Source: a virus. Taken from it: a DNA stretch of 27,829 bases. The stretch spans positions 1-27,829 of IMG/VR virus record IMGVR_UViG_3300023284_001347. One strand, given 5' to 3'. Position 1 is the first letter of the stretch. Every line of letters starts with the position of its first letter. Positions 8,013 through 26,099 of the stretch are shown piece by piece. The notes beneath the pieces are model-generated. The model searched no databases. It saw nothing but the letters and a program-made list of their open reading frames with translations, and was not told the origin of the DNA. The translations under genes were made by a program, and so were the position numbers.

Positions 8013-8422
8013 TAAGAAGCTTTCCTCTGCTTCTTATACGGTGGTCTTCCAAAACCATAATAGGGAAGTTTTTCTCTTTTTTTGTGCTCCTTTGGAACTT
8101 CATCTTCTGAGAGTTGCATCAACTTCTGGCCTTCCACCATAGGAACATCATGAATTAAGAATTTCTGTTCGGTTTTGTCAAAAATAGCCTTTCTTTGTTC
8201 ATCATGATGATAGATTCTAAGGATAGATCTTAACTTTCCAAATCCAACTTTCCTTGAATTAGCATAAGGCATCCATAAATAACCAACCATCTTTTTGCCA
8301 CTTGCTACTTTTTTGGCTATTTCATCGGCTGACCTTATTCTATTTTCTGTTATATCCTCCTCAGTTTCATTTTTTCTAATGGAAGGTGGCCTACCTGGAC
8401 CCCTTCGTTGCATCTCTTCCAT
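8012..8422 (-). CDS. Basic protein with two AT-hook-like GRP motifs
   Basis: A 136-residue basic protein not recognised as a named family. Near the N-terminus it has RRGPGRPPSIRK (about 5-17) and near the C-terminus GFGRPPYKKQRK (about 122-134); both contain the Arg/Gly-Arg-Pro core of AT-hooks, which bind the minor groove of A+T-rich DNA. The middle has a compact alpha/beta segment with GYLWMPYANSRKVGFGKL. It lies between the major capsid gene and the adaptor gene and starts at ATG 8422 after AGGTCAAT. Candidate roles are a head-completion or internal DNA-contacting protein. The AT-hook reading is by motif only; GRPP can also be a simple disordered linker. Confidence 0.6.
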   Translation of the reverse strand: MEEMQRRGPGRPPSIRKNETEEDITENRIRSADEIAKKVASGKKMVGYLWMPYANSRKVGFGKLRSILRIYHHDEQRKAIFDKTEQKFLIHDVPMVEGQKLMQLSEDEVPKEHKKREKLPYYGFGRPPYKKQRKAS

Positions 8423-8437
8423 ATTGACCTCCTTATG

Positions 8438-9355: not shown

Positions 9356-9372
9356 TTTAAATTCCCTCCTTA

Positions 9373-9792
9373 TTAATCAAAAGTAACTGTCAGGGTTCCC
9401 TGCATGGTAAATGGGTTCAAGAAAACATCAATGACAGTACCACTCGCTGCACTAGCATCTAAAGCCCGCCCTATCATCGACCGGAGCGTTGCGGCAGTAT
9501 TCGATACGGCTGTGGCCCTGACAGCACCACCCGAGCCAATCATAATCATGTCACCAGCGGTACAGGTATCATGCACTGTCAATTTTGATAATCCGAGCAT
9601 TCTCACGTTGCAAGCAGACCCAGTTCCTGCTTTTGGCCTTCTCTGTAAAATTCCTACGACTCTATGAGTAATACTATTTGCAATAAGCACTGAGTTACTT
9701 GAATTTACATAAACCGGCTCCCAATCGCTGGTTGTAGTGTTCAAATCCGCACCGGCTTTTGTTGAAATATCAAATCCAGGACCTGCTTTCAT
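9373..9792 (-). CDS. Capsid decoration protein (DUF2190-like)
   Basis: A 139-residue small beta-rich protein between protease/scaffold and major capsid genes, where many phages encode a capsid-stabilising decoration protein. It carries the typical patterns: NSVLIANSITHRVVGILQR, a middle CTAGDMIMIGSGGAV, and GRALDASAASGTVIDVFLNP near the end, which match the DUF2190 style of beta-tulip-type decoration proteins. It starts at ATG 9792 after GGAGGTTTAATT. A role in binding the outer capsid surface is inferred from family and position. Confidence 0.7.
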   Translation of the reverse strand: MKAGPGFDISTKAGADLNTTTSDWEPVYVNSSNSVLIANSITHRVVGILQRRPKAGTGSACNVRMLGLSKLTVHDTCTAGDMIMIGSGGAVRATAVSNTAATLRSMIGRALDASAASGTVIDVFLNPFTMQGTLTVTFD

Positions 9793-9794
9793 AA

Positions 9795-10316
9795 TTAAAC
9801 CTCCTTTGCTACCGCTCTAAGAGCAGTTTTGTAATCATCGGATTTCAAATAATCGAGACTGTTTTCTCTACAATAAGCCTTAACTTTAGCCTCGACATCA
9901 TCTGAAGCAATGCCTTCTTTAGTTTTCTCTTCACCTATAAAGCTAGGTTGAGCTGCAACAAATTGCTCAATTGCATCTGCCGAACTCATCTTTCTCTCTT
10001 CTGGCTTTCCGTCTTTGGAATACATGACAACCACTTCAGATGCAGGGATTTTCTCATAAATAGCTTGAATCAATGGTCCCTGTGCAGGTGTTATTTTCTT
10101 TCCACGAACCCAGGTATCCACCTTTGTTTTTACAGATTCTGAAAACCTGGCAACCTTCTCTTTCTCATATTCCTTTTCCTTTTCCTCGAACTTCTTCACC
10201 AAAGATTCATTTTGCTCTTTGATTTTTTTAAACTCCGCATCCTGCTTTTCTTTTTCTTTGGTAAAATGTTTTTGCTGATCTTCAATTTTTTTCTCTAATT
10301 CCTTTTTGTCCTCCAT
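9795..10316 (-). CDS. Scaffolding protein from internal in-frame start
   Basis: Inside the protease gene an ATG at 10316-10314 (residue 229) is in frame and is preceded by AGGAGG at 10330-10325 with an 8-base spacer (AATTATCA), an ideal ribosome binding site. Translation from here gives 173 residues covering the charged coiled coil and the C-terminal helical domain. This matches the Mu I/Z arrangement, in which the scaffold is a separate product of the protease gene. The AGGAGG also encodes Glu residues, so chance cannot be excluded, but perfect core and spacing inside a protease-scaffold gene make it likely. Confidence 0.6.
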   Translation of the reverse strand: MEDKKELEKKIEDQQKHFTKEKEKQDAEFKKIKEQNESLVKKFEEKEKEYEKEKVARFSESVKTKVDTWVRGKKITPAQGPLIQAIYEKIPASEVVVMYSKDGKPEERKMSSADAIEQFVAAQPSFIGEEKTKEGIASDDVEAKVKAYCRENSLDYLKSDDYKTALRAVAKEV

Positions 10317-11000
10317 TGATAATTCCTCCTCTTCCATATTTCTATTTTGACTTGATTTTATGGCCCTTTCTTGGGCTTCAGCTTTTTCTTTTGAATCATG
10401 AGTTCCCAACACTTTCCCTGTGGAAGGTGACACTAAAACCCATTTATCTCCTCTTTTTTGAACAATGAATTCTTTTATTTCATTATCAAATTCAATCACC
10501 TTAAATTCACGGCCTTCAGAATCCATGAAAAGACTCGAAATAGATTTAAGGTTTGTAACTTCTGGAATTTCAGATCCTAGAAGAGCAACAGCCTTTAAAG
10601 CCATTGGCCACTTCTTTTTGTTGGTTGTATCATCATAGTTCAAATACATCTCAATTGAGATTGCATCGTATGATTTGTTCTGTATAAGATCATGAATTTG
10701 CTTTGGAATATATGATACATCGGCCAAGAGTCTGTCATCCTGGCGATAAAGGTTCTCTATCCAACCAGCAGCAGGCAATCCACTATTTTTTAGGAGTTTT
10801 TGATTCTCGGAATGGCCTAATTTAACAGGCGGCTTGAAACCTACCTTATCAAAAGCTTCAACCATGGCATCAAGATGAGAAATGTCAAAAACGTCCCCAT
10901 GCCATGTTCCTGTACGGAATATCTCAAGGCCATTTAAATTAAATGTAGACTGGTCAAATAATGATAAAGCCGCTTCAGGCATTTGTTTCCTCATTGCCAT
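9795..11000 (-). CDS. Mu gpI-like prohead protease with C-terminal scaffold region
   Basis: A 401-residue two-part protein. Residues about 1-160 resemble the Mu I family of prohead proteases: FRTGTWHGDVFDISHLDAMV, then KPPVKLGHSENQ, LPAAGWIENLYRQDDRLLADV and a YDAISIEMYLNY segment, which correspond to the conserved His and Ser areas of that serine protease family. Residues about 170-205 hold a GDKWVLVSPSTGKVLGTHDS module common in phage scaffolds. From about 210 to 300 the sequence is highly charged coiled coil (many K/E), followed by a helical C-terminus. In Mu the same gene encodes the protease and, from an internal start, the scaffold; an internal start is visible here too. The scaffold is cleaved and removed during maturation. 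Confidence 0.8.
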   Translation of the reverse strand: MAMRKQMPEAALSLFDQSTFNLNGLEIFRTGTWHGDVFDISHLDAMVEAFDKVGFKPPVKLGHSENQKLLKNSGLPAAGWIENLYRQDDRLLADVSYIPKQIHDLIQNKSYDAISIEMYLNYDDTTNKKKWPMALKAVALLGSEIPEVTNLKSISSLFMDSEGREFKVIEFDNEIKEFIVQKRGDKWVLVSPSTGKVLGTHDSKEKAEAQERAIKSSQNRNMEEEELSMEDKKELEKKIEDQQKHFTKEKEKQDAEFKKIKEQNESLVKKFEEKEKEYEKEKVARFSESVKTKVDTWVRGKKITPAQGPLIQAIYEKIPASEVVVMYSKDGKPEERKMSSADAIEQFVAAQPSFIGEEKTKEGIASDDVEAKVKAYCRENSLDYLKSDDYKTALRAVAKEV

Positions 11001-11049
11001 TTGAAGCGACCTTGGAAGGAACAGCTTTTAATTTGGTTAGGATATTATC

Positions 11050-11076
11050 AATATAATAAATTTTTAAAATTGTCAA
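11050..11076 (-). promoter_or_regulatory. Candidate sigma70-type promoter for head genes
   Basis: In the 79-base gap between portal/gpF and protease genes the minus strand has a perfect -35 box TTGACA (11076-11071). A TATATT lies 15 bases further (11055-11050), one mismatch from TATAAT, and a GATAAT follows after 21 bases. The 15-base spacing is short and the 21-base alternative long, so strength is doubtful. The gap is otherwise A+T-rich and has no gene. A promoter here would give extra transcript for protease, decoration and major capsid genes. Confidence 0.35.
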
Positions 11077-11079
11077 GCT

Positions 11080-13242
11080 TTATCCGACAACCCCCCTAAA
11101 CCGTTCTAAATCGTCATCTTTTACAGCCTGATCTGATACTTCAAAGCTTTCTCCTTCTGTCACAGGAACAAGAATGGAGCGACAATTAAAATGATTTGGC
11201 GGAGTTATACGGTCAATATATGGATCACTTGCCCTATACACCTTTCCATCTAGCCGGGTGCATATATCAGTGGTTCGGCTATCAATAATCGCTGAATATT
11301 GATAAGCCTTTACAAACCCTTTAAGATTAGGATCTTCAAATATATTCCTTCTACCCTGATTATAAATCTTCGTTACATTTGTCCTAACAATAGTTTCAAT
11401 TCTGTTAGGCAATGAAAACCCTGGTTTTGTAGGATCAAAAACCGCGCCTTCTTCCAGGAGATAATTGTCTCTGAATAGCTTTTCAACCCTTGTTTGTATT
11501 TCTCTGTTTGATAATCCTTGTTCAATCCCATCTAAAAGTATCTGTTTTGTATCCCTTAAAATCCGATCCCGCTCAATACCTGTAACGAAGAAAGAACGCT
11601 CATCAAGAATGGATTCAAATAGTTCATGAGGATCTTTTGTCTGAAATTTTTCAGATCCTAATTCTTTACGCGCTGATTGTTGGCCAGATGACCAAATATC
11701 ACCCAAACTAAGTTTCCATGCTAATTGTAATTGTTTTACAAATTTCAATTGGAATGAATTTATTTTGTCCATTCTCTGTTTTTCAATAAGATTACTTGAT
11801 TTAACAGATTCAATAATACCCTCTTTAATCTTCTCAAATGCTGGCATTAATGATCGTATAGTTTTTATATCTAGTTCCTGTAAATCATTTTTTACCTTTA
11901 CAAAATCCACCTTTTTCTCAAACGCTGTTTCTCCTCGATGGACAAATAGACCTATGTCATTAGAAAATTCCTTCTTAGGTGGATTAAATGGACTCCCTGG
12001 GAATCCCTTATTTGCTTCTTGTTTAGGCTTTTTAATCGGCCCTATCGGATAACGGATATTAGTTCTGAATTGATTTATTTCATCATCCGTAGGTTCCCAA
12101 ATATTCCCTTTAATAGCTTCTATCCATAGCTTTTGAAGCTCTAACTTGTCAGGTGTATCCAATGGCCTAAGAACCCATTTCGGAGTCTTTGGGCCTTTGA
12201 TTCCATAATTCCACAATAGCAATGGTCTTATAACATATTTGTTAATGGCTCTTTGCAATTCAATTCTTATTTTCTCAATGGTGAAATAGAATATTTCAAA
12301 TTGTTTTTTCCCAAGTGCAAATGATCCGCCTCCTATTTTTGCCCCGGATAATCCCATTAAATCAGGAATAAGAAGTGATCGAGCCATCATCATATTGTGT
12401 TTGTCGATAGCCCTTTCAAAGTCTGTAGCTCCTGTACTTTGAGATTTAAGATCTATCTTTACCCCTTCCGGTACGGTGATTCCTGTTTTTGCCTGAATAT
12501 TTTTTAGAATATCCTGTAATTTGTCTTTATCTGCTTTTGAGGTATTAGGTGGCACAGTGCCAACAATAAAAGGGCTTCCGAATCTCTCAAGATATATATT
12601 CCAAAACTTGATAACGATAGATTTTGAAAACCAAGGACGATAGCATGATTGAAGATCTGAGGTTCCATATGGAACACCGAATTCATATTGATGGATCATA
12701 AGCATGAGATGGTGAGGAGAAACAAAATTAGGACCAGTGGATGTATCTTGTTCAAATTGAGTAATATCCCCAAATTCATCTGTGTGGATCGTGAAGGCAT
12801 GAGGAGCGCGTGTTTTTAATTTCTTCAAAATAACTTTCGGGCCGTTTTCCGTTTCAGCAATATCAAAGATAGGTTCCGTTATAGAAAATCCATAGTCCAA
12901 ATGTGTCAAAATATTGGTTAAAACGTCACTGAATTCAGGACCTTCTATAGCCGTCAAATTCTCTTCAATTTCTTCCTTTATTGATTCATCTCCTGGATTT
13001 TGAATTTCAATATCCCACCCGGAAGACAGAACCATAAACTTCTTTATCCAAAGAACAGCTTTGATCTGATCATCCCGCTTCATATCGTCATAAATACCGA
13101 ACGGAGGTTTTTTCTTGGCAATCTCATCTGGATTATAAGGACGTTCAACGTATCCTTGATAAAGAAATGAGTCGGATTTGAGTCGTTCTATAAATACAAC
13201 CCCTTCCATATCTATATCTTCAAATGATGTAGTAGTTGCCAT
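11080..13242 (-). CDS. Portal protein (DUF935, Mu gp29-like) fused to Mu gpF-like head morphogenesis domain
   Basis: A 720-residue protein. Residues about 1-410 match the DUF935 portal type: YNPDEIAKKKPPFGIYDDMKRDDQIKAVL at the start, the clip/stem region with WDIEIQNPGDESIKEEI, and later FWNIYLERFGSPFIVGTVP and GGGSFALGKKQFEIFYFTIE. A linker follows at about 410-460. Residues about 560-720 match the gpF / SPP1 gp7 minor head family: ETIVRTNVTKIYNQGRRN, then YQYSAIIDSRTTDICTRLDGKVY and TPPNHFNCRSILVP with its conserved Cys and CRS. In Mu these are two genes. Here one frame covers both without a stop. It starts at ATG 13242 by TAATG coupling. The portal is the DNA channel at one vertex; gpF-type proteins are a few copies per head. 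Confidence 0.88.
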   Translation of the reverse strand: MATTTSFEDIDMEGVVFIERLKSDSFLYQGYVERPYNPDEIAKKKPPFGIYDDMKRDDQIKAVLWIKKFMVLSSGWDIEIQNPGDESIKEEIEENLTAIEGPEFSDVLTNILTHLDYGFSITEPIFDIAETENGPKVILKKLKTRAPHAFTIHTDEFGDITQFEQDTSTGPNFVSPHHLMLMIHQYEFGVPYGTSDLQSCYRPWFSKSIVIKFWNIYLERFGSPFIVGTVPPNTSKADKDKLQDILKNIQAKTGITVPEGVKIDLKSQSTGATDFERAIDKHNMMMARSLLIPDLMGLSGAKIGGGSFALGKKQFEIFYFTIEKIRIELQRAINKYVIRPLLLWNYGIKGPKTPKWVLRPLDTPDKLELQKLWIEAIKGNIWEPTDDEINQFRTNIRYPIGPIKKPKQEANKGFPGSPFNPPKKEFSNDIGLFVHRGETAFEKKVDFVKVKNDLQELDIKTIRSLMPAFEKIKEGIIESVKSSNLIEKQRMDKINSFQLKFVKQLQLAWKLSLGDIWSSGQQSARKELGSEKFQTKDPHELFESILDERSFFVTGIERDRILRDTKQILLDGIEQGLSNREIQTRVEKLFRDNYLLEEGAVFDPTKPGFSLPNRIETIVRTNVTKIYNQGRRNIFEDPNLKGFVKAYQYSAIIDSRTTDICTRLDGKVYRASDPYIDRITPPNHFNCRSILVPVTEGESFEVSDQAVKDDDLERFRGVVG

Positions 13243-16147: not shown

Positions 16148-16558
16148 TTAATCCAGGGTTATATATAAAGCCCCAGCCGAGAAACTAGGGATATCATCGG
16201 TTGAAACTACTTTAAATGTCGTGACCGTACCCCAAGCTAGAAGATTTCCGCCAGTTGAAGTGTCAAAAATTCCGAAAGCCTCAATCGTTGTCCAAGCTGC
16301 CGTTGCCGTTGCGAAAGTAATAGCGGCTGAATTGTCAACTGTGGTGGTTCCACCAGCACTTGTCGTTCCAACATTCCATGCGTCAGAAGTAACGCGCGCA
16401 TAACCTCCTGTAGCCACTTCCGTTCCTCCCCCTGTATCCGATGGCACGGCTGTGAATAACGCACAAAACAAATTTGTAGGTCTAGTATAAGCAGCCCCTG
16501 TCGGAAAAATATGATCCAGCATTTCTCTTTCTAAAAAATCAGAAAATGAACCAGCCAT
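16148..16558 (-). CDS. Phage tail-fibre-associated small protein
   Basis: A 136-residue protein of a type that is very common beside phage fibre genes. Its pattern is a short helix (FSDFLEREMLDHIF), then PTNLFCALFTAVPSDTGGGTEV and GGYARV, followed by a Thr/Ala-rich beta sandwich that ends in FSAGALYITLD. The family has no firm biochemical role and is probably structural. AGGAGG lies before ATG 16558. It opens the appendage block after the sugar genes. Confidence 0.65.
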   Translation of the reverse strand: MAGSFSDFLEREMLDHIFPTGAAYTRPTNLFCALFTAVPSDTGGGTEVATGGYARVTSDAWNVGTTSAGGTTTVDNSAAITFATATAAWTTIEAFGIFDTSTGGNLLAWGTVTTFKVVSTDDIPSFSAGALYITLD

Positions 16559-16586: not shown

Positions 16587-17978
16587 CTAAACTTCCTCCT
16601 TCGCCAAGTCAATATACGGCGCATCTTTTGAATGCGGGGTAGTATATTTATTCCCGTTGTCGTTTAATTCATCCTGTGTCGGTATTTTTGACATAATAAA
16701 ACCCTGCCAATTGAAACACTCCTCAAAGCGCATCGGATTAATACATTTAACCATCTCAAGTAAATCCCCGGCCTTCTTGTAGAATTCCTCTGCCTCTTTG
16801 AGCCCTTTTGATTTATGTATTTTTTGACCAAGCGACAAATGGGCCATGGCTAAATGAGAGATCACATTTTCATCGTGTGGTTTAAGATCAAGAACGCCAG
16901 TCAATTCAGAAATACATTCCTCAAAGCGTTCATATTGATAAAAAAACAAGCCCCTTTGGACATCGAAAAGAATTGTATTTGGACAACTCTTTTCACCTAC
17001 CTCTAAAATCTGTAACTGTTTGTCAAGATCCTTGAAATGTTTAGTAGCTTCTCCCAAATACGCATCCACAAATCTTGGATATAACCGGATAGCCTCTGAA
17101 AAGTTTCCTTTCTGATATTGCAATGCCGCCCGTTTCATATCCCATAACTGCTCCATTACATGTTGGGAATTCGGCATCTTATCGTCTGGTTTTAAATCGT
17201 TCGATGGTTCAATAAGCATCGTCCATCCATACATCCTTTTATTCTCAGATATAATTTTATAACCAGTTACATCCAGAAGTCTTTGAAGGTGCCACCTAGA
17301 CCACGCATTGATATGATCTGGGTGAAAATGCTCATCGAAGGTATCGAATGTCCCGCCACCCCAACGCATCATCTCCTCCATCCAAATAGGAGTAGCAATA
17401 TAGAGACTCCCGCCGGCTTTGATAGTTGGTTTGAGTTTCAATAAAAGTTCTTTCGGATCTGGGATATGCTCTAAAGTGTGATAGATGCAAACAAGATCGT
17501 ATTTCTTTTTAAAATCGAAATCTTTTGAAACATTGATATCAAAAGCGTGTTTAGCATAACGCCTATAAGTGGTGGTCAACTCTGATCCTGTTATATCCTT
17601 TATTTTAAACTTATCCCGTATCCATCTTAGAAAATAACCTATCCCTGATCCAATCTCTCCAACGCTTATCTCCTCTGCTTTCTTATTTTTGAGAAGTTCC
17701 TTGATCCAAGGATTTAAAAATTTATCGTGATAACCAACTTTACGGTTTGTTGTCAGAAGATTCTTAATATTAACCTGAATGCTATCCCTATAAGACTTGT
17801 CGTAATAGGTTTCATATTCAGACACGTCATGAAATCTATCAAAGGTGATAAATCCACATTGCTTACAGACCATCATATTTTCAGCTTTGGCCCGGAAGAT
17901 ATCAGCGTCCATCCATTCTTTTCCGTCACATATGAAACATGTTTTATCTATTTTCTTGAGTTCTAAGCCAGGCAGCAT
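16587..17978 (-). CDS. Zinc-ribbon class I methyltransferase with C-terminal TPR region
   Basis: A 463-residue protein in three parts. Residues 14-41 hold two CxxC pairs (C14, C17, C38, C41), a zinc ribbon. Residues about 95-210 are a SAM-dependent methyltransferase: motif I GEIGSGIGYF (107-116), an acidic strand end at ITGSELT, HTLEHIPDP (167-175) and GGSLYIATP (189-197), as in the Methyltransf_23 group found in surface-sugar clusters. Residues about 280-430 have helical pairs that look like TPR repeats. Similar enzymes modify sugars in O-antigen or capsule gene clusters. It overlaps the epimerase gene by 35 bases. The substrate is unknown; methylation of a sugar or of a protein-bound glycan is inferred. 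Confidence 0.75.
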   Translation of the reverse strand: MLPGLELKKIDKTCFICDGKEWMDADIFRAKAENMMVCKQCGFITFDRFHDVSEYETYYDKSYRDSIQVNIKNLLTTNRKVGYHDKFLNPWIKELLKNKKAEEISVGEIGSGIGYFLRWIRDKFKIKDITGSELTTTYRRYAKHAFDINVSKDFDFKKKYDLVCIYHTLEHIPDPKELLLKLKPTIKAGGSLYIATPIWMEEMMRWGGGTFDTFDEHFHPDHINAWSRWHLQRLLDVTGYKIISENKRMYGWTMLIEPSNDLKPDDKMPNSQHVMEQLWDMKRAALQYQKGNFSEAIRLYPRFVDAYLGEATKHFKDLDKQLQILEVGEKSCPNTILFDVQRGLFFYQYERFEECISELTGVLDLKPHDENVISHLAMAHLSLGQKIHKSKGLKEAEEFYKKAGDLLEMVKCINPMRFEECFNWQGFIMSKIPTQDELNDNGNKYTTPHSKDAPYIDLAKEEV

Positions 17979-18804
17979 AAAGTTTTATCCCTTCTTTTAT
18001 TTTTATCTCAGGTTTCCAATTCAAAAGCGCTTGAGTCAATTTGTAGGCTGGAGCCAGTTCATTTTGTAAATCCCCTTTTCGTTTTTCTTTGTGTATTACA
18101 GAAACATCTCCTATATTTTGCCTTACAAGATCGGCCAATTCTTTCACTGAAATGTCCTCATCCCCGCAGATATCTAAAATCTCATCTTTCAATGGAATAT
18201 GCCTATTGACTAATTTCTCACAAGCCAAAGCAAGATCATTAATGTACAAATAACACCTTGTAGGTGTTCCCTCACCGAAAATTGTAATGGGTTCACCTTT
18301 CAAGGCCTTACCAACAAAATTACATAGTGCCGTTCCGCTTCTGGCACCTGGCCCGTACAATGTCCCAAGCCTGACGATACAAGTCGATATTGAATAAGTA
18401 GCGGACCATGATTGACATACCATCTCCCCTGCCAGCTTACTCATCGTGTAAGGATGAGCATTCTGTGGCCATCCCTCACACCAAGCAGAACTCATATAAT
18501 AGAAATCAGGGATTTTCTTTTTCTTTACCCATTCCAGAACATTGGCTGTTCCGACAATATTGCTTTCTATGGCTTCAACAGGATTCTCATGAACAACATT
18601 CACATTTGCAGAAGCGGCAAAGTGTAAAACGATATCCACATAAGGCAAATTAAGCCCATGGTTGCAAATATTCCATCCCATGACTCCTTTTTTCGCATAT
18701 GCAAGGGCCGGTTTATCTATCCTCGTAATTTCGTGATCCTTACTTAAATAATTGGCAACGTAGTTTCCAAGCCACCCTTCACTTCCCGTAATCGCTACCC
18801 TCAT
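17944..18804 (-). CDS. NAD-dependent nucleotide-sugar epimerase/dehydratase (extended SDR)
   Basis: ATG 18804 (286 residues) is preferred to ATG 18828 because it has AGGAGG just upstream and places the cofactor loop at the N-terminus as usual. The Rossmann motif is GSEGWLG (residues 7-13). A catalytic Ser lies in MSSAW, and the Tyr-Lys pair is YTMSK. Later parts include RLGTLYGPGARSG and GTPTRCYLYINDLALA, a typical sugar-nucleotide pattern. Family members convert UDP- or dTDP-sugars by 4-epimerisation, dehydration or reduction. The substrate cannot be read from sequence. It starts the stretch after the structured gap, with the methyltransferase gene overlapping its end, so both probably modify the same sugar. 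Confidence 0.85.
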   Translation of the reverse strand: MRVAITGSEGWLGNYVANYLSKDHEITRIDKPALAYAKKGVMGWNICNHGLNLPYVDIVLHFAASANVNVVHENPVEAIESNIVGTANVLEWVKKKKIPDFYYMSSAWCEGWPQNAHPYTMSKLAGEMVCQSWSATYSISTCIVRLGTLYGPGARSGTALCNFVGKALKGEPITIFGEGTPTRCYLYINDLALACEKLVNRHIPLKDEILDICGDEDISVKELADLVRQNIGDVSVIHKEKRKGDLQNELAPAYKLTQALLNWKPEIKIKEGIKLYAAWLRTQENR

Positions 18805-18816
18805 AAACCTCCTAAT

Positions 18817-18876
18817 AAAAAAGGCCATACAGGAAAAACTCTCCCATATGGCCTATCAAAGCTTTTGTATGGCCTT
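18817..18876 (-). terminator. Terminator-like hairpin with competing alternative, before epimerase start
   Basis: On the minus strand a 5' arm AAGGCCATAC (18876-18867) can pair perfectly over 10 bp with GTATGGCCTT (18830-18821), followed by TTTTTT (18822-18817) and ATTAGGAGG. A second copy, AGGCCATA (18854-18847), can pair with the same 3' arm over 8 bp. The two stems exclude each other. The T run then leads directly into the epimerase ribosome binding site. It may end transcripts from the GHKL gene or tune entry into the epimerase gene. Confidence 0.55.
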
Positions 18877-18881
18877 AGTTT

Positions 18882-18914
18882 AAAAGGCGTATCAACTTGC
18901 GAAGTATCGCCTTT
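18882..18914 (-). terminator. Second hairpin with short T run in the 18805-18990 gap
   Basis: The minus strand reads AAAGGCG (18914-18908), an inner stem ACTT-CGC-AAGT, then CGCCTTTT (18889-18882). The outer stem is 7 bp, the inner one 4 bp, and four Ts form the end. It lies some 75 bases after the GHKL stop codon and 6 bases before the next hairpin. The tandem layout is like that of double terminators. The gap 18805-18990 holds no gene I can support. Confidence 0.45.
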
Positions 18915-18990
18915 AAATCTCTAATGATGCTTAAAACAATTTCCTTATGGTTAGGTTTTAATTGAATCTCCTTTAGTTAGTTTGCGACTA

Positions 18991-20439
18991 TCACTCATTT
19001 CCAAAAATCTGTTGTCTCGCCTGATACCCTATTTTCGCTAATAGCTGACTATATTTTTCTGAAGTCGTGTCAGTTTCAGATTTAACATATTTTTCAAACC
19101 GCAGAGGCAATTGTCCTGTTTTATTTATGACCCCATAATTTGCAATTAATCCAATAATGTTACTCAAAAAAGAAAATCTTTTTTCTGGCCCTGTTGGAGG
19201 TTTTCTTAAAGCTTTAACAAGCGGATCATTTTGGGAAACCTTTATCGTTTTTACCCTACCGTTAAAATCTAATTTTCCAAATCCATCATCTTCCGACAAA
19301 TCACAAAATATTATTTGTACTGCCCCCATACCTATATTATTTAAAACCTTATCTCCAACCTGGATATTCTTTGCCTTTTGCCGTTTTCTTTTATCCTCTG
19401 GATCTACAGTCCCTTTCGTATCACCTTCTCCTCTTTTTTCCTTCTCTTTTAGAGTATCTAATAATTTACTTAGATCCTCATTGACTTGATTCTGAAAAAG
19501 ATCAGAAGAAAATTGATCAGCCGCCTCATGCGCCATTTGAAGAACTGGTTTACAAATATTCTCAACCGTTGTTTCCAATTCCTCCTTTAAATCTGCAAGG
19601 TCGTCTTTATTTTTAGTCAAATTCCAGTCATCTGATAAATCCACCCAACCCGCAATTCTTTCAAAATTATAATCCCCACATCCGAATCCAGTTGATGATA
19701 AATTGGAAATCACCCGGTATTTGTAACGGTAGGTTAAGCCACACCTTGGGTTTTCAACTCCAGTTGGAACGATTCCAATGTTAATCTTTATTTCCTTTCC
19801 TTTAACATATCCAGAGGCCTCCAAGATGTTCTGTCTTTGGGGCCATTTAAATGCTTTCAAAACAAATTTAGATTCATTCAGCTTAGAAAGTTTTATCCTC
19901 GCTCCGTCTTCAATTGCCAGACTATATGTAAAACCAAGCCAATTAATTAATTTTTCAAATGCCTTCCCTTCAGGGAATCTTTTCCCTCTATCAAAATCTA
20001 TTTTCTCAAAAACGATTGACGTCCCTATTTCTTCGTTTTCTGATTTATTTATAATTGGATCAGGGATATACCAGTCTGGGGTCTTTGAAATCCTATGCCA
20101 ATCGGCTTCTACTTCAAATGTTTTACCTTTGCTTGTTGTCTTAATAATTGTCCTTCCCCACAACCAAACAGCGACATCTTTACAGCCAATTCCATAACGT
20201 CCAATCATTCTTTTTCCTTCGTGTGGTTCGTGCATGCCAGGAGTGACTAAAGCCAATACATTTTTACAACCTATTCCGTTATCCTCAATTTTTAAGTACC
20301 TGTGACCCCACTTTATTTCAATGTCTTTTGAATCTGCGTCTAATGAATTATCAATTAATTCTCCAAGCATAATCTTCCAGTCTTGCCGACAGTTCCTCAT
20401 TGATTCTAAAATGTGTGGTGTAGGACATACGTTAGCCAT
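18991..20439 (-). CDS. GHKL-type ATPase (Hsp90/MORC/MutL-like)
   Basis: A 482-residue protein whose first ~190 residues carry the full GHKL ATP-binding set: N box ELIDNSLDA (27-35) with catalytic Glu and Mg-binding Asn, G1 box IEDNGIGC (51-58), and lid G2 box GRYGIGCKD (80-88). A middle domain follows (about 200-300), then a helical region with a charged KEKEKRGEGDTKG linker near 345, and a C-terminal domain of about 130 residues (KNIQVGDKVLNN onward). There is no nuclease or kinase motif. MORC-like GHKL ATPases occur in bacterial restriction and defence islands and in phages. It starts at ATG 20439 with GGAGGT and overlaps the upstream helical protein by 8 bases, so the two are translated together. 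Confidence 0.85.
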   Translation of the reverse strand: MANVCPTPHILESMRNCRQDWKIMLGELIDNSLDADSKDIEIKWGHRYLKIEDNGIGCKNVLALVTPGMHEPHEGKRMIGRYGIGCKDVAVWLWGRTIIKTTSKGKTFEVEADWHRISKTPDWYIPDPIINKSENEEIGTSIVFEKIDFDRGKRFPEGKAFEKLINWLGFTYSLAIEDGARIKLSKLNESKFVLKAFKWPQRQNILEASGYVKGKEIKINIGIVPTGVENPRCGLTYRYKYRVISNLSSTGFGCGDYNFERIAGWVDLSDDWNLTKNKDDLADLKEELETTVENICKPVLQMAHEAADQFSSDLFQNQVNEDLSKLLDTLKEKEKRGEGDTKGTVDPEDKRKRQKAKNIQVGDKVLNNIGMGAVQIIFCDLSEDDGFGKLDFNGRVKTIKVSQNDPLVKALRKPPTGPEKRFSFLSNIIGLIANYGVINKTGQLPLRFEKYVKSETDTTSEKYSQLLAKIGYQARQQIFGNE

Positions 20440-21082
20440 TTTTAATACCTCCGCCGATGCTCTCTGCTACTGATATTAGGATTTGAGCTATTTTGAAATG
20501 CGTTTTTTTTGGGCATCTGTCTAATTCCCTATTCACAAAATCACTGATCCTCGATCTTGCTTTCATTGAATCCCAAACCACATCTTCATTGTAGGTTGGA
20601 TTATGGTCTATTTTTGTTTTTGGAAGTATTGCCTTTAAAAACCGAGCAGTGCTTAATTCAGTTCCGTTGGATTGTAATTTTCCTAAAGCGGTTTCAAATT
20701 CTTTGTCTGGGATGGATTTCAATTTTCTCGATCTTGCTGAAATTTCTTTCGTCAAACCAAGTTCTGCAATTGTGGGGGTTGAATTAATGGGTGGTTGACT
20801 ACCTCTACCACCCGTCTTTTTCTTGAATTGTCCAGCTTCACCCTTATTCTTCTCCCCCCCCTCCAATATCTCGCCTAGCTTCCGCTCCGCCCTTATTTTG
20901 TATTCGGCGGCCCTGTTGATTAATTCAAAGCTTGCCCCGATCCGCTTTGCATATACCCTAGCAGCCTCGGAAATGTCAGATAATTGCTTGGCCTCAGATA
21001 CCGTTTTACATTCAGCTAAAAGCTGTGTGCATTTGCTGAGTTTTACCAAAACTTGATCGTTTGGAGTTTGGTCTTTCACCAC
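20432..21082 (-). CDS. Helical phage protein, partner of the GHKL ATPase
   Basis: A 216-residue protein of a kind frequent in phages, prophages and integrative elements but without a named function. The pattern TVSEAKQLSDISEAARVYAKR, then INRAAEYKIRAERKLGEIL, then PTIAELGLTKEISARSRKLKSIP and a following ETALGKL is recognisable. The helices around 25-75 and 110-150 suggest DNA binding, with ELGLTKEISARSRKL resembling a helix-turn-helix as in ParB-type proteins. The start is GTG 21082 or GTG 21079. Its last 8 bases are the first codons of the GHKL gene (ATGGCTAA). It may direct the ATPase to DNA; this is inference. Confidence 0.7.
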   Translation of the reverse strand: MVKDQTPNDQVLVKLSKCTQLLAECKTVSEAKQLSDISEAARVYAKRIGASFELINRAAEYKIRAERKLGEILEGGEKNKGEAGQFKKKTGGRGSQPPINSTPTIAELGLTKEISARSRKLKSIPDKEFETALGKLQSNGTELSTARFLKAILPKTKIDHNPTYNEDVVWDSMKARSRISDFVNRELDRCPKKTHFKIAQILISVAESIGGGIKNG

Positions 21083-21103
21083 AATTCCACTTTAATCTTA
21101 ACT

Positions 21104-21922
21104 CTATTTTGCATAATCTTTATTCCAGACAAATTGGAAAGACGCCTTTCTCCATAATTTTTCGTATTCATCCAACGGATAAGCCTGCTCTGCATCACTC
21201 AAACTCTTCTCAGGTTCTGGATGCACCTCACACAAAAATCCATCTGCACCGGCCACTATCCCGGCCAGTGTCATGGATTCAACTAAATCACGCCTTCCTG
21301 TTCCGTGAGATCCATCAACCAATATAGGCAATCCAGTCATCCTCTTAACAGCAGCAATCAAGGAAATGGACAGATCCCACCTTACATGGTTCATATGTGT
21401 GGATGATCCACGTTCAATTAGAATCGCATTTGTCTTCCCGTTCCTGACTAAATACTCAGCCGCGCCTAAGAACTCATCAAGCGTTGCACCCATATTTCTT
21501 TTTAGTGTAACTGTCTTTTCCTGGTAAGACAGAACATTTAACAACCGATAATCCTGCATATGCCTTGCACCAACTTGAAAAGCATCCACATAATCATCTA
21601 AAAAGTCTATGTCGTCACATCCAAACACTTCAGAGATAATCTTAAGATTATGTCTATGTGCCACATCCGAGAACATCGTTAATTTTCCTATATCAAGCCC
21701 GAAATCTTTCGGTGGGTAAGTACCGGCTCTAACCACTCCCCCGCGCATGTAGGTACAACCGACACGGCTTAATTCCAACGCGATTGTTTCAACTTGGTTT
21801 TTGTCTTCAATAGAGCAAGGCCCTGCAATGACTATCATTTCTTGTTCTTTGTGAGGAATGGATAGGACCGTAGGATAGTTAGGTTTAGGGCCCCAGGATC
21901 TTTTATGATCCAATTCACTCAT
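21104..21922 (-). CDS. Divergent type I DAHP synthase / keto-sugar-acid synthase
   Basis: A 272-residue TIM-barrel enzyme of the DAHP synthase / KDO-8-P synthase superfamily, which joins phosphoenolpyruvate to an aldose phosphate. The metal ligands are all present: Cys36 in GPCSIED, His206 in VDGSHGTGRRD, Glu232 in CEVHP and Asp243 in LSDAEQ. GARHMQ (118-123), LKRNMGAT (140-147) and ERGSST (170-175) are also retained. The substrate loop is changed: after RGG (60-62) it reads VVRAGTYPP instead of the usual AFKPRTSPY, so the Lys and Arg that bind substrate phosphates in DAHP synthase are altered. No feedback ACT or other regulatory domain is present. It overlaps the 100-residue gene as ATGA. 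It is probably active, with a substrate that may not be erythrose-4-phosphate. Confidence 0.85.
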   Translation of the reverse strand: MSELDHKRSWGPKPNYPTVLSIPHKEQEMIVIAGPCSIEDKNQVETIALELSRVGCTYMRGGVVRAGTYPPKDFGLDIGKLTMFSDVAHRHNLKIISEVFGCDDIDFLDDYVDAFQVGARHMQDYRLLNVLSYQEKTVTLKRNMGATLDEFLGAAEYLVRNGKTNAILIERGSSTHMNHVRWDLSISLIAAVKRMTGLPILVDGSHGTGRRDLVESMTLAGIVAGADGFLCEVHPEPEKSLSDAEQAYPLDEYEKLWRKASFQFVWNKDYAK

Positions 21923-22221
21923 CTTTTTCTCAACTTCATTGGCTCAGTATGTGTATGATGACCGATAGATTTATCAATTCTCCAATAACCTTCCCCGCTA
22001 GAAAAACCATTAGCAGACGCTCTTGTTTCAGCTTCATAAAAAAGAACAGTCTGTTTTCTGACTAAATCTTTTTCTTCTTCAATGGTTAATTCTCTCTCTG
22101 GCTTCTGTTGAGTCGCCCGGATTGCTTTTAAGCCATCCACTAACAAGGTATCAGACCAAAAAGGGACAATAATCCTCAATCTTGTCAAAGAACATGTCAT
22201 CAAGTTTATTTTCTGACTCAT
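21919..22221 (-). CDS. Unknown 100-residue protein coupled to DAHP synthase
   Basis: A 100-residue protein that I do not recognise. It has an N-terminal strand region (INLMTCSLTRLRIIVPFW), a charged helix (PERELTIEEEKDLVRKQ), and a His/Arg-rich end with GHHTHTEPMKLRKR. It overlaps both neighbours as ATGA, so it is tightly tied to glycosyltransferase and keto-sugar synthase genes. I looked for chorismate mutase and small binding-protein motifs and saw none. Confidence 0.6.
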   Translation of the reverse strand: MSQKINLMTCSLTRLRIIVPFWSDTLLVDGLKAIRATQQKPERELTIEEEKDLVRKQTVLFYEAETRASANGFSSGEGYWRIDKSIGHHTHTEPMKLRKR

Positions 22222-23513
22222 ATGACCTTATACACAAAATCCCGGTAATCCGGCTGTGTTTTGGAAAGAGACGTTTCCGTTTGATAATAGATCCATGTCG
22301 GAATATTTAGTTCCTGATATTTGTATCTTTTAGACATACGGTTGAAAAACTCTAATCCCTCCCATGCCCTCAACCCGTCACAGAATTTTAGTTCATGAAA
22401 CATCCAAGCACGAACCATAGCCCCACCCATATGGTGGGAGTAATTGTCAAACACTTCTCCGTGTTGATTCCTATAAGACGGATATATTACACAGAGATTA
22501 TTATCTTTTTTTATTACATCAACAAGCATTTGAAGTGCATGTGGTAAAAGTTCATCATCGGCATCGACGCGAATGTAATATTTTCCTTTAGCGTTCTTTA
22601 ATGCTCGATTGCAAGCAGATCCTAAACCCTCGTTCTTTCCTCCCATTAATTCTACTCTTCTATCGACCGTACATGATCCTATTTGGATAAATGTATTGTC
22701 TGTACTGCCATCATCATATAAAATATATTCAAAATCCTTGTATGTCTGATTCAAAACGGATTTAATAGTTCTCTCGATAGTCTTCTCAGCATTATGAGCG
22801 CAAGTATAAACCGTGACCTTTGGAAGGTGATTCATTGACAGGATTTCAGGATATAAGATTAGTTTCTCATAAATATTTCTATCGCTCATATCCCCTTCAC
22901 ACACATCAAAAAGCTTCTTGATTGTAAGAATGTCCTCTGGCCAATCCAAAGAAATCCTTCCTTTTATGTCAGAGGAGGAATGAAATGAAACCGCTTTTAT
23001 TTTTGCTTTAAGTTCTTGCCTTCTAAAAGCATAACTCAAATATTCAACATCCCGGTCTTTATGATATTCATACGCGCGCGTAAGGAAATCTTTAGAGACG
23101 ACTTCTGAATCAGTCCCACGCAGAACATCAGACATATAGGTATAATCTAATTTTCCTTCTTCATGATGTCTTAAGATTAATCCCATCAAAACCGTATCCA
23201 CAAACAAATCATCATGGGTCACTCTAACAACAGGATCAAACCCGTATTCCATAGATGCCCAAAAGAATCTCCCCAATGGATTTGTATCATGGCCTCTAAA
23301 AACCAGTGGTTTCAAATCCTTCGTTGCATCTATCAATGGGTCATCTTCATGACTAGATGGGATAGCAAGACAAACCGGATAATCAGATTCCATTAACCGT
23401 TTCACCAACCACCAAATAGCTGGCTTCCCGTAAAACTCAGTCAATGGCTTATTTGGTATTCGTCTTGATTTAACCCTTGAGCATAAAACTATTCCCGGTT
23501 TATTTTTTATCAT
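22218..23513 (-). CDS. Fusion of SpsF/KdsB-like cytidylyltransferase and family 2 glycosyltransferase
   Basis: ATG 23513 is preferred (431 residues) since AGGAAG lies 8 bases before it; an upstream GTG at 23522 lies inside the binding-site area. Residues about 5-215 match the CMP-sugar synthetase family (SpsF, KdsB): SRVKSRRIPNKPL at the start, PLGRFFWA, VVRVTHDDLFVD, and RISLDWPEDI near the end. Residues about 230-428 match GT2: VTVYTCAHNAEKTIERTI, YDDGSTDNT and RVDADDEL (the DxD metal site). The first domain would activate a keto sugar acid with CMP and the second transfer a sugar. The gene starts inside the 3' end of a small membrane protein gene. Substrate and acceptor are not known. Confidence 0.8.
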   Translation of the reverse strand: MIKNKPGIVLCSRVKSRRIPNKPLTEFYGKPAIWWLVKRLMESDYPVCLAIPSSHEDDPLIDATKDLKPLVFRGHDTNPLGRFFWASMEYGFDPVVRVTHDDLFVDTVLMGLILRHHEEGKLDYTYMSDVLRGTDSEVVSKDFLTRAYEYHKDRDVEYLSYAFRRQELKAKIKAVSFHSSSDIKGRISLDWPEDILTIKKLFDVCEGDMSDRNIYEKLILYPEILSMNHLPKVTVYTCAHNAEKTIERTIKSVLNQTYKDFEYILYDDGSTDNTFIQIGSCTVDRRVELMGGKNEGLGSACNRALKNAKGKYYIRVDADDELLPHALQMLVDVIKKDNNLCVIYPSYRNQHGEVFDNYSHHMGGAMVRAWMFHELKFCDGLRAWEGLEFFNRMSKRYKYQELNIPTWIYYQTETSLSKTQPDYRDFVYKVI

Positions 23514-23682
23514 CTGCTTCACTTCCTAATTGCTGTAACCTATTTCTAAATCCCCCTGGCCCGTCCGGGTCTTGCTGTAACCACCGCCATGCGTACCCGA
23601 TAAACGCTAACGCTCCTATTACAAGACCGAAAATAAACATGAAAAGAATAGAGAAAATAAACAAAAGTGGATCAATAGTCAT
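23500..23682 (-). CDS. Small single-pass membrane protein
   Basis: A 60-residue protein with one long membrane helix (about 6-31, LLFIFSILFMFIFGLVIG) and a polar tail with QQDPDGPGGFRNRLQQLG. It overlaps the radical SAM gene as ATGA and the next gene by 14 bases. It could anchor the neighbouring sugar enzymes at the membrane, or act in lysis or superinfection exclusion; the sequence does not decide. Confidence 0.6.
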   Translation of the reverse strand: MTIDPLLFIFSILFMFIFGLVIGALAFIGYAWRWLQQDPDGPGGFRNRLQQLGSEADDKK

Positions 23683-24605
23683 TTAATATTTATGTTATAA
23701 GACGCCCAAGATGTACAATTCACACATACAGGATGTTTATAATTCACCATCTTTGCATCGTTCCTAATATCGGATATTGCTTTAGAATTCCATATTTCGT
23801 TAATAGATTGTTTAGTCACATCCCCAACATACAGATCATCCAGCCACGGAATGCAGCAGGGGGCAACCCTTCCATCCCATGCAATTGTTAATCTCTGGAA
23901 CGGGAATCCGCAGTTCTTCCTTCCATTAACCTTAATTTTACTCTCATCGAAATACGCTCCAACCTTCGGAGGATTTCTTGGGAAGACTGGTTTGCTGTAG
24001 AATTGAGCTCCCCATCCTTCAACGTATTTCTTAACCGTTTCTTCTTCATCCCAATTTTCTTTCTGCTTTGTGAAATTAACCCGGATTGTATCAACGACTC
24101 CAAAATCCATTTTACTTGTTGCTAGAATCTCAAAATTTTTCATCACGGTTTTCAGCGGTCCGCCTGGTCTAATTGAAAAAGCTTTTTCCTCATCTATCGT
24201 ATCAATAGAAAAGATAACCATATTGAAAAACTCCATGGCATCTCGTGTGTTGGATGTAGTGTATGAACCATTTGTATTGATCATCAAATCCGTGAAATTT
24301 AACCAATAAGCATCTGATACAATCTCACAAAAATCAGGATGTATTGTAGATTCCCCCCGCCAATTTAATTTAACTGAGCTAACCCCAATATCTTTTGCCT
24401 CTTTTAGAATCCTTACAGCTAATTTCTTATCCATAAAATCTTTGGTAAAACCAGATGGAATTTCAGCCTGCGGGCACATGGGACAACGAAAATTACAAGC
24501 AGAAGCTAACTCAATATCTATATGTATAGGAGCATCGGTTAGAACCCCAGTTCCGGCTAGATTCCATTGTTTTCTATATTGTTGGTAATCAATAACCTGT
24601 TGCAT
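23679..24605 (-). CDS. Radical SAM enzyme with SPASM-like C-terminal cluster domain
   Basis: I choose ATG 24605 (308 residues) because it overlaps the terminase stop as TGATG; a TTG codon lies one codon earlier. The SAM-binding cluster motif is CNFRCPMC (Cys37, 41, 44, spacing Cx3Cx2C), followed by a GGE-like site RGES (83-86). The C-terminal part has extra cysteines at 232, 250, 251, 294 and 297, in GFPFQRLTIAWDGRVAPCC and HPVCVNC, as in SPASM domains that hold auxiliary iron-sulfur clusters. SPASM enzymes modify peptides, sulfatases or sugars. No precursor peptide gene is evident next to it. It is the first gene after terminase and co-directional with the sugar genes, so glycan or virion protein modification is possible. 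Confidence 0.85.
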   Translation of the reverse strand: MQQVIDYQQYRKQWNLAGTGVLTDAPIHIDIELASACNFRCPMCPQAEIPSGFTKDFMDKKLAVRILKEAKDIGVSSVKLNWRGESTIHPDFCEIVSDAYWLNFTDLMINTNGSYTTSNTRDAMEFFNMVIFSIDTIDEEKAFSIRPGGPLKTVMKNFEILATSKMDFGVVDTIRVNFTKQKENWDEEETVKKYVEGWGAQFYSKPVFPRNPPKVGAYFDESKIKVNGRKNCGFPFQRLTIAWDGRVAPCCIPWLDDLYVGDVTKQSINEIWNSKAISDIRNDAKMVNYKHPVCVNCTSWASYNINIK

Positions 24606-25927
24606 CAAACAAATGTATCCTGATACATCCCAAGACTCTCCACTTCCCCGAAAGTCTCAACTTCTCCTATGGAGAAACATCCTTGCGATATCTGCCAACA
24701 GGCTAAAGCCAAGGCAATCACGCAATCATCGTAAAACCCAATCGGTGCGGATCGCTTCAGCCTACCCGTGGCTGTCATTTGATACTCAAACGCTTCTAAT
24801 TCATGAATCAACTCCGGTATGTTTGGAAACCGTATCTCACTGTTTTCAATCTTAACGATCAGGTTATCTATCAGATCTCTTTTTGATCCTTCCGTGAATG
24901 TAAACGGCATTACCGGATACCCATCCCTCATCAACGATTCAACGAACATATCGCCGCCCATTCCAGTGGCATCCACAATCATCGGGGCCTTATTATATTT
25001 GTCACAAATAATCTTTATCCGCCGTTTCTGCAATTCCCAATCTATTTTGTTGAATCTCTCAAACTCCACCAATCTTCCCTTATCGTCCATTACACACATA
25101 ACCGTAAAGTCATGAAGCTTCGCTAAATCCACTCCCATCACATAAGATTGAGTCGGGGATGGCTTCATCAACGCTCCTTGAATACACGCACGCACATTCT
25201 TGAAAACCAATCCTCCTCCTTCTATAAACTCAGCCAAGTATTCCTGCCTGAAAACAGATTCCGGCAAAGACGCTTTTTCCTGTTCAATATCCAATGGATC
25301 TATAATGGGATTGTTACTGGTAGGATGATGGAAAGATTGTATGCGTTTATTCAGTGGGTCTAAACCTCTTAAATAATTCTGATAGAACCAGTTTTTTCCT
25401 TTAGGAGTTGAGATCATCAAAGCCCACCCTTTTTTATCAATTAACCTTTGTGAAATGTGTGAGTCCCAAATAGTAGGCTTAAGCCTTGCCGCTTCATCTA
25501 ATACCACCCAATCTAAACTCTCACCCAATAGGGAATCCGGGTTATCCCCGGACTTGCCCTTAATCTCAGAGATGAATCCCCAGATGTTCACAAACCTTAT
25601 CCGCATCTTGGCCTCAGACGCCTCCAACACTAAAGATTGATGAATTTTTTCAACAACGGCCCGGTACACTTCCCTGAACACCTTATTAGCCAGATCATAG
25701 CTAGGGGCAACAATCCATCCAATAGAATCCCTAGGATTTCTCTGACTCTCAACCAACCCCTCAAAAGCCGCAAGCTTAGACTTCCCCCACCTAACACCAG
25801 CATCAATGACCCTTATCTTAGCCTTACAATCATGTATCTCTAATTGATCCGGTCTTGGCTCATAATCAAAAAACGTGAAAGCCTTATGCTTATCGAAGTG
25901 TTCTGTCTTTTTTGTTTTTACCGCCAT
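24605..25927 (-). CDS. terL: Terminase large subunit
   Basis: A 440-residue DNA packaging motor from ATG 25927; a TTG at 25933 would add two residues. The ATPase part (about 1-220) has Walker A GVRWGKS (44-50), Walker B WVVLDEAAR (140-148) and the coupling motif MISTPKG (171-177). The nuclease part (about 255-440) is RNaseH-like, with MGVDLAKLHDF (Asp267) and MIVDATGMGGD (Asp319), and later acidic residues in LIHELEAFEY. It cuts the concatemer and pumps DNA through the portal. The start lies inside the previous small gene by 38 bases. The small subunit was not identified. Confidence 0.93.
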   Translation of the reverse strand: MAVKTKKTEHFDKHKAFTFFDYEPRPDQLEIHDCKAKIRVIDAGVRWGKSKLAAFEGLVESQRNPRDSIGWIVAPSYDLANKVFREVYRAVVEKIHQSLVLEASEAKMRIRFVNIWGFISEIKGKSGDNPDSLLGESLDWVVLDEAARLKPTIWDSHISQRLIDKKGWALMISTPKGKNWFYQNYLRGLDPLNKRIQSFHHPTSNNPIIDPLDIEQEKASLPESVFRQEYLAEFIEGGGLVFKNVRACIQGALMKPSPTQSYVMGVDLAKLHDFTVMCVMDDKGRLVEFERFNKIDWELQKRRIKIICDKYNKAPMIVDATGMGGDMFVESLMRDGYPVMPFTFTEGSKRDLIDNLIVKIENSEIRFPNIPELIHELEAFEYQMTATGRLKRSAPIGFYDDCVIALALACWQISQGCFSIGEVETFGEVESLGMYQDTFV

Positions 25928-26099
25928 GTTCAATCTTTCTTTTTATTGTTCTTTTAAAGAACTTTTTCAATTTATCTAAAATGGATTGTTTAGATTTTGG
26001 CATTCCAAATTCTCTCGACAAGAAATATCCGTAAAGAGCGAACCATACAACGATACCCATCAAGGGTAATGTAACAATCAAATACGGCTTCCATTCCAT
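25890..26099 (-). CDS. Small membrane protein with basic tail
   Basis: A 69-residue protein with one N-terminal membrane helix (about 6-28, LIVTLPLMGIVVWFALYGYF) and a strongly basic cytoplasmic tail (KKFFKRTIKRKIEHGGKNKK). The basic tail may bind DNA or phospholipid. It starts at ATG 26099 with AGGA four bases in front, straight after a terminator-like hairpin, and overlaps the terminase start. Holin-like and DNA-docking roles are both conceivable; no clear evidence favours one. Confidence 0.6.
   Translation of the reverse strand: MEWKPYLIVTLPLMGIVVWFALYGYFLSREFGMPKSKQSILDKLKKFFKRTIKRKIEHGGKNKKDRTLR

Follow-up and report, generated by a model that had tools for sequence, protein, structure and literature searches.

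What does a phage gain by placing sugar enzymes among the genes for its own particle, and do such enzymes form one pathway? The question is raised by the viral IMG/VR record IMGVR_UViG_3300023284_001347, the whole 27.8 kb of which was analysed and is called the window here. On its minus strand, at 16587–24608, lies a cassette encoding a radical S-adenosylmethionine (SAM)/SPASM protein, a fusion of a CTP_transf_3 (SpsF/KdsB-like) domain with a GT2 glycosyltransferase domain, a synthase of the 3-deoxy-D-arabino-heptulosonate 7-phosphate (DAHP) synthase family, an extended short-chain dehydrogenase/reductase (SDR) and a class I methyltransferase. The original prediction, made from this DNA alone, saw in them a complete route to a sugar acid that is activated with cytidine monophosphate (CMP), transferred and methylated. 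Comparison with other viral contigs leads us to hold, with moderate confidence, that a phage late-gene cassette of this kind may make and attach a CMP-activated 2-keto-3-deoxy sugar acid, perhaps to tail fibres.

A four-gene core recurs in a fixed order

The family was opened with a DNA pattern for the synthase motif RGGxxRAGTYPP, and alignments of single genes then served as scan seeds; contig numbers from these scans are at-least figures, and the three seed sets overlap. Scans of viral contigs with a single protein had returned no relatives of the window synthase and none of the major head protein. Three viral contigs matched the pattern: all three carry the methyltransferase, and both of those with upstream sequence carry the fusion and the radical SAM gene, the latter seen for L019 in a longer locus. 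Seeding with the fusion gave 24 loci on 24 contigs, with the radical SAM gene in 24/24 and the methyltransferase in 21/24, the three misses being contigs that stop just downstream. The synthase seed gave 27 loci on 26 contigs, 24 of them with the methyltransferase, 21 with the fusion and 22 with the radical SAM gene; the fusion is missed in three contigs cut upstream and in L072 and L074. With the radical SAM seed, 33 contigs were reached (fusion in 31, methyltransferase in 30), the misses falling to L095 and L096, which are cut, and to L080, which like L074 has a split version of the cassette.

The final table holds 46 contigs, with G+C across loci from 31 to 64%. Radical SAM, fusion and methyltransferase genes lie together on one strand in 36 of them, in identical order in 36/36 and within spans of 4.0 to 8.0 kb, and a synthase sits between fusion and methyltransferase in 35 of these 36 (the exception is L024). 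Given this shared order, the gene neighbourhood is beyond chance. Five contig pairs share at least 9 kb of DNA, so that contig counts overstate the number of independent events. As a control, 14 viral loci that match the window fusion in its GT2 part only (some of them near-copies of each other) contained no radical SAM gene, fusion or methyltransferase of the cassette kind at the thresholds used; two of them contain a closely related SDR, together with weak methyltransferase matches (3.7e-5). The predicted co-occurrence was thus borne out by three scans, each seeded with one gene: related phages do not carry the core genes singly and at random.

The conserved core consists of the radical SAM enzyme, the CTP_transf_3–GT2 fusion, a phosphoenolpyruvate (PEP)-condensing synthase and a methyltransferase with four N-terminal cysteines. 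In the window, all on the minus strand, the first is the twitch-like radical SAM/SPASM gene at 23679..24608 (PF13186 6.8e-16, PF04055 1.1e-10), which starts at a TTG at 24608 or an ATG at 24605; the second is the fusion at 22218..23522 (PF02348 1.3e-11, PF00535 1.5e-29); the third is the synthase at 21104..21922 (PF00793, DAHP_synth_1, 5.2e-48); and the fourth is the methyltransferase at 16587..17978 (PF13489, Methyltransf_23, 5.3e-16). Together with the SDR (17944..18828, minus strand, PF01370 1.2e-33), all five proteins first claimed for this block are present on one strand with the domains assigned to them.

A scan of genomes yielded one locus, L023, a contig of an Endomicrobiia metagenome-assembled genome with a terminase large subunit (TerL) like that of the window, and 294 genomes of the same phylum, searched at E 1e-70, held no carrier besides this contig. 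Because the genome scan used motifs of four early members only, it may have overlooked bacterial copies of the wider family. In the plasmid search 74 records matched, all below 60% identity.

The synthase slot is shared with NeuB

A NeuB-family synthase is absent from the window and occurs in 12 further contigs, of which 10 have no DAHP-synthase-type enzyme; L021 and L035 carry both types. NeuB stands alone in the slot between fusion and methyltransferase in nine contigs. The slot count is nine and not ten since in L024 the slot contains no synthase and a full NeuB gene lies past the terminase gene terL. Of the nine, the three that were scanned (L028, L043 and L046) match Pfam NeuB; the others were recognised with a hidden Markov model (HMM) made from these three and two more sequences. 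The HMMs for NeuB, for the small gene and for the fibre-like gene described below (12 contigs) were all built from loci of the same set, and the counts for these three are therefore partly circular. In a comparison of L046, which has NeuB, with L026, which has the DAHP-synthase type, the DNA aligns at 67–75% as far as the small gene, shows no match across the synthase and aligns once more in the methyltransferase; the pair L094 and L099 shows the same pattern. A quick tree built from the other three genes, with 40 rows, requires at least five changes of the NeuB/DAHP-synthase state; L024 is counted in it as NeuB, and its three rows without a synthase are contigs cut before the slot.

NeuB and DAHP synthase are branches of one PEP-condensing superfamily, and their exchange in one slot therefore supports a keto-sugar-acid product. 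It fits the originally predicted keto-sugar-acid pathway better than it fits aromatic metabolism. Three observations pull the other way. On the tree the synthase labels cluster more strongly than shuffled labels do (for NeuB, 3/500 shuffles as low), so the swaps are few; 10/35 inner branches of the tree are weak; and the NeuB proteins in the slot are short (~225 residues), without the C-terminal domain that a full NeuB has.

In L021, one of the two contigs with both types, the NeuB copy (8827–9513) lacks the histidines of YSDHT and EKHFT and lies near an intact DAHP-synthase-type gene. From its sequence it looks like a replaced enzyme in decay.

The acceptor site of the DAHP-synthase-type enzyme is probably altered

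By family models the window synthase is nearest to type I-beta DAHP synthase and is neither KDO8P (3-deoxy-D-manno-octulosonate 8-phosphate)- nor NeuB-like, although it stays below the cut-off of each model: 243.5 bits against 267.75 for the DAHP synthase model TIGR01361, 260.8 against 335 for NF006421, and 65.1 against 314 for the KDO8P synthase model TIGR01362. Its AlphaFold2 (AF2) model, with a predicted local distance difference test score (pLDDT) of 88.2, is nearest in fold to 1vs1 (template modelling score, TM, 0.82), and the protein is ~38% identical to solved enzymes of type I-beta. PHROGs already files a phage family, phrog_5045, as DAHP synthase. All this is what one would see if an ordinary DAHP synthase fed the shikimate pathway and boosted aromatic metabolism, beside unrelated sugar genes, and to that extent it tells against a sugar-acid synthase.

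The residues point elsewhere. A DAHP synthase of 272 residues, Aro1A, has a matching numbering; in the part of PMC6362186 drawn on here, C36, H206, E232 and D243 are given as metal ligands, R60, K65, S119, R120, K141 and R171 as PEP residues, and R67 and T68, with D243 again, as residues for erythrose 4-phosphate (E4P). Among 32 phage synthases all four metal ligands are kept (C36 31/31, H206 32/32, E232 32/32, D243 31/31), as are R60, R120, K141 and R171 in every copy showing the column (31/31 or 32/32). Residue 65 is arginine in 24/31 and lysine in 4/31. Where DAHP synthase reads KPRTSPY the window synthase reads RAGTYPP, which puts glycine at the position of the E4P arginine, residue 67. 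Glycine stands there in 27/31 copies and arginine in 4/31, a ratio biased by motif-based search patterns that favour RAGT; among contigs from the fusion or radical SAM scans it is glycine in 20/23. With the metal ligands and most PEP residues kept and residue 67 glycine in most copies, these enzymes have probably retained their PEP chemistry and altered their acceptor site.

Two further points weaken this reading. Three cassette contigs keep the E4P arginine (L077, L081 and L102, with KPRS or KYRS; L081 and L102 are near-identical), and in the structural model the loop at the acceptor site, residues 67–72, has a pLDDT below 50. We nevertheless regard a booster of aromatic metabolism as very improbable: the arginine has become glycine in most copies, the slot is exchanged with NeuB, the window protein falls below the DAHP synthase cut-offs, and no other shikimate gene was found among the window proteins scanned. 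The earlier placing of the enzyme with makers of keto sugar acids stands in so far as its slot alternates with NeuB, and has to be qualified in that its nearest relative is DAHP synthase, not KDO8P synthase, and that three cassettes retain the arginine.

The fourth Arg-67 copy, an ordinary KPRT DAHP synthase, lies outside any cassette in L072. At 8004–11713 it stands beside two proteins of the GT29 sialyltransferase family and a polysaccharide pyruvyl transferase, possibly another phage sugar-acid set.

Partner enzymes and the proposed pathway

The CTP_transf_3 domain of the window fusion scores 45.1 bits (Pfam gathering threshold 22.6) and was matched in 21/22 fusions at E 0.001. R16, S19, R21, K25, D104, D193 and D197, the signature residues of the CMP domain, are invariant in 22/22, so that the key residues whose presence had been in question are there. 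The AF2 model of the fusion (pLDDT 90.9) retrieved the Leptospira cytidylyltransferase 6oew and GT-A enzymes with Foldseek, and the CMP domain was aligned with 6oew and with KdsB 2y6p, its nearest structures. PF00535 is found in 22/22 fusions, with D270 and D271 (DD) and D320, D322 and D323 (DxDD) invariant in all of them.

Some points tell against activation and transfer by the fusion. One fusion has no CTP_transf_3 match; the usual donors of GT2 enzymes are sugars activated with UDP, GDP or TDP, and several of the solved enzymes nearest the GT2 domain use such donors according to their structure titles. The complete route from central metabolites that had been proposed is not supported as stated: the acceptor aldose and the use of a CMP-sugar by the GT2 domain would both have to be assumed.

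A profile of 18 radical SAM members has BtrN as its best PDB match (4.7e-20), over both the core and the twitch regions, followed by SkfB, viperins, MoaA and YydG. C38, C42 and C45 (CxxxCxxC) and the auxiliary C233, C251, C252, C295 and C298 are invariant in 18/18. BtrN oxidises an aminocyclitol in butirosin synthesis and has four cysteines for its auxiliary cluster, according to the part of PMC9012708 used here; both of its domains match the cassette enzyme, which is a distant relative. SkfB and YydG are peptide maturases, several NCBIfam peptide-maturase models match weakly, and a fibre-like gene is often adjacent, as would suit a radical SAM/SPASM enzyme that modifies a fibre peptide, by a crosslink or epimerisation like those of ribosomally synthesised and post-translationally modified peptides (RiPPs), with the sugar genes decorating it. 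With an aminocyclitol dehydrogenase as the best match in both regions, and with the window protein below the cut-off of every NCBIfam model among the 25 matches listed, we think such virion peptide maturation improbable.

In the methyltransferase C14, C17, C38 and C41 are invariant in 17/17 members, a pattern from which a zinc site may be read. TPR_2 was matched in the C-terminal region of 11/17, and none is listed for the protein of the window itself.

The catalytic steps, their order and the acceptor we infer as follows. A PEP-condensing barrel synthase, of the altered DAHP-synthase or the NeuB type, would join PEP to an aldose, yielding a 3-deoxy-2-keto sugar acid. That the arginine for the E4P phosphate is lost points to another aldose, one that may carry no phosphate. 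A Pfam scan recognised no phosphatase among the cassette genes of the window, and a PfkB kinase in L074 hints, against this proposal, at a phosphorylated substrate. The SpsF/KdsB-like domain would charge the product with CMP, the twitch-type radical SAM enzyme may oxidise or otherwise alter the sugar, and the methyltransferase may methylate it. Transfer by the GT2 domain would then take place in the cytoplasm, with a particle protein, for example the fibre encoded alongside in many carriers, as the most likely acceptor.

In the split cassette of L074 (6941–11078) a radical SAM gene and a RAGT synthase occur with a separate CTP_transf_3 gene, a separate GT2 gene and the PfkB sugar kinase, with several SDR genes nearby. 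Here CTP transferase and GT2 are two distinct genes beside the kinase, which supports their joint function.

More tentatively, radical SAM, CMP-transferase/GT2 and methyltransferase may form a widespread modular cassette into which RAGT, KPRS or NeuB synthases have been plugged repeatedly, varying the sugar acid of the fibre much as bacteria vary their surface sugars, the RAGT type being a new enzyme with an undescribed product. We offer this wider proposal as a possibility that has less than an even claim.

Genomic context favours the particle as target

In 26/38 contigs with enough sequence, the start of a fibre-like gene lies no more than 2.5 kb upstream of the radical SAM gene. The N-terminus of its product is conserved, and the C-terminus, judged by eye, is rich in glycine in several contigs. 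A fibre target is weakened by 12 of the 38 contigs, among them the window and L023, in which no fibre-like gene lies beside the radical SAM gene, and by the family searches, in which one of three fibre-like proteins matched a PHROGs tail fibre (L026; L028 and L029 did not) and none of the three scanned had a Pfam match. Both in the window and in L023, the cassette instead comes after terL and before the head genes.

The same sugar pathway could serve to place a glycan on the host surface, so as to mask receptors or exclude superinfection. In bacteria, the SpsF and NeuB families act in surface polysaccharides, and among the phage glycosyltransferases in PHROGs those closest to the GT2 domain are of the GtrB-like kind that belongs to O-antigen conversion. 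Seroconversion of the gtrABC type works with a membrane flippase and a membrane glycosyltransferase. That membrane feature was not found here: no membrane-anchored glycosyltransferase or flippase is among the core genes, and a 19-residue hydropathy scan, a simple measure, gave no likely membrane span in the radical SAM protein, fusion, synthase, SDR or methyltransferase of the window (peaks 0.74–1.57). Tail, terminase or fibre-like genes lie nearby wherever this was tested. We consider a host-surface glycan unlikely, if less so than peptide maturation. Of the two targets originally named, virion and host surface, the context favours the virion, by the fibre neighbour, the lack of a likely membrane span and the cytoplasmic precedent of Caulobacter discussed below.

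Phages also glycosylate DNA, and since the methyltransferase and glycosyltransferase look soluble, an activated sugar might be placed on phage DNA or RNA. We give such nucleic-acid hypermodification a very low probability, as the cassette sits among particle genes and no base-modifying partner was recognised among the window proteins scanned, the other cassettes not having been searched for such genes.

Layout of the window and accessory genes

The minus-strand order is terL, radical SAM/SPASM, CTP_transf_3–GT2, an open reading frame (ORF) of 100 residues, synthase, orf216, HATPase, SDR, methyltransferase and the head and tail genes. Both anchors lie outside the cassette on the same strand: terL directly upstream (24605..25933, PF17289 5.5e-15) and a head protein after the cassette (16148..16558, phrog_240 1.2e-22), with further head, portal/morphogenesis, protease, major head and tail genes downstream. 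TerL is ~34% identical to Thermus phage terminases in the named phage collection, which places the window phage far from the isolates there. The overlap chain first described holds for most of the cassette genes, which overlap or abut, and is interrupted by gaps of ~160 bases between radical SAM gene and fusion and between ATPase and SDR.

The five-enzyme set is complete, and three more genes lie inside the block. Two of them, orf216 (20432..21082, minus strand, 216 residues; phrog_33995 1.4e-4, a family without annotated function) and a GHKL-type ATPase (18991..20439, minus strand, HATPase_c_3, PF13589 2.2e-13), had no match in any other locus compared; they form an insertion at 18991–21082. 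The third encodes the 100-residue protein between fusion and synthase (21919..22221, minus strand), which has no family match and a sequence relative only in L023 (3e-13) and its copy L048; hhalign gives 88% with the small proteins of L024/L025. Small genes of several kinds (~120 residues) occupy this place in the window, L023 and many others. Their products do not join into one family: hhalign reaches 88% and 82% for two group pairs, and the other eight pairings fail.

The SDR epimerase, first counted as a member of the pathway, is not core, because the type found in the window occurs in three cassettes only (window, L024 and L025). Weaker matches were found in L084, inside the cassette, and in L074 and L057. 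A close relative of the window SDR also lies at 12800–13732 in L006/L007, loci without the cassette.

In L019 (8315–8638) and L036 (11335–11823) lysis-like genes, M15-like and GH108-like by eye, lie between fusion and synthase. The synthase gene of contig 3300046323_000300 (L066/L073) is split over both ends of the contig, which points to a genome of ~46 kb that closes into a circle.

Relation to known systems

Virus-encoded glycans, bacterial ulosonic-acid pathways and phage DAHP synthase genes (with a PHROG of their own) are already known kinds. Giant viruses encode their own virion glycans, with genes for sugar synthesis and transfer; here the carriers are tailed phages, the cassette is small and exchangeable, and a PEP-derived sugar acid is proposed. 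Closest in logic is Caulobacter, where, in the part of PMC7591256 consulted, NeuB, the cytidyltransferase FlmC and FlmG bring about cytoplasmic O-glycosylation of the filament protein. The likeness lies in a PEP-dependent synthase, a CMP-transferase and a transferase, whereas here the genes are phage-borne, CTP transferase and glycosyltransferase are fused, the synthase is usually of the DAHP type, and radical SAM enzyme and methyltransferase belong to the core. The dehydratase, aminotransferase and acetyltransferase set of nonulosonic-acid synthesis was not recognised in the window, which has only the SDR, possibly a dehydratase; other contigs were not searched for the full set. With the KDO/CMP-KDO pathway (KdsA–KdsB) the cassette shares the synthase superfamily and the cytidylyltransferase family, but the score with the KDO8P model is much lower (65 vs 243 bits), no phosphatase was recognised in the window, and a GT2 domain stands in place of a KDO transferase. 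Type I-beta DAHP synthases (1vs1, 1zco and Aro1A, the last from the part of PMC6362186 used above) share fold, metal ligands and most PEP residues, and differ in having K65-P66-R67 where the phage enzyme has R-A-G beside a CMP transferase and in a slot shared with NeuB.

Among phages, Stenotrophomonas phage DLP4 has an ORF with a NeuB_NnaB domain in its lysis module, with a role that is unclear according to its authors (PMC6469090, consulted in part). This ORF and phrog_5045 belong to the same synthase superfamily and are single genes, no such cassette being described in that part of the source. Synechococcus phage S-SCSM2R (PQ898602.1) is annotated with KdsA and KdsB. Among 50,697 named phage records, none covered 80% of the query for the fusion (window and L026 queries) and none matched the methyltransferase (L027 query); the window radical SAM protein had two weak matches, and synthase matches include Listeria, Staphylococcus and Enterococcus entries, presumed to be host sequence. 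Searches of open-licence PubMed Central papers turned up no description of such a cassette, the nearest being the lone ORF of DLP4, and none of the synthase motif.

Many different uncultured phages carry this block beside their particle genes, which suggests that they build an unusual sugar of their own and attach it during infection. If so, tailed phages of probably many hosts, as the range of G+C indicates, would make and attach a PEP-derived sugar acid, and annotating such genes as auxiliary genes of aromatic metabolism would be misleading. The natural synthase swaps would then amount to a built-in experiment, offering a route to phage particle glycosylation and possibly to a new synthase specificity.

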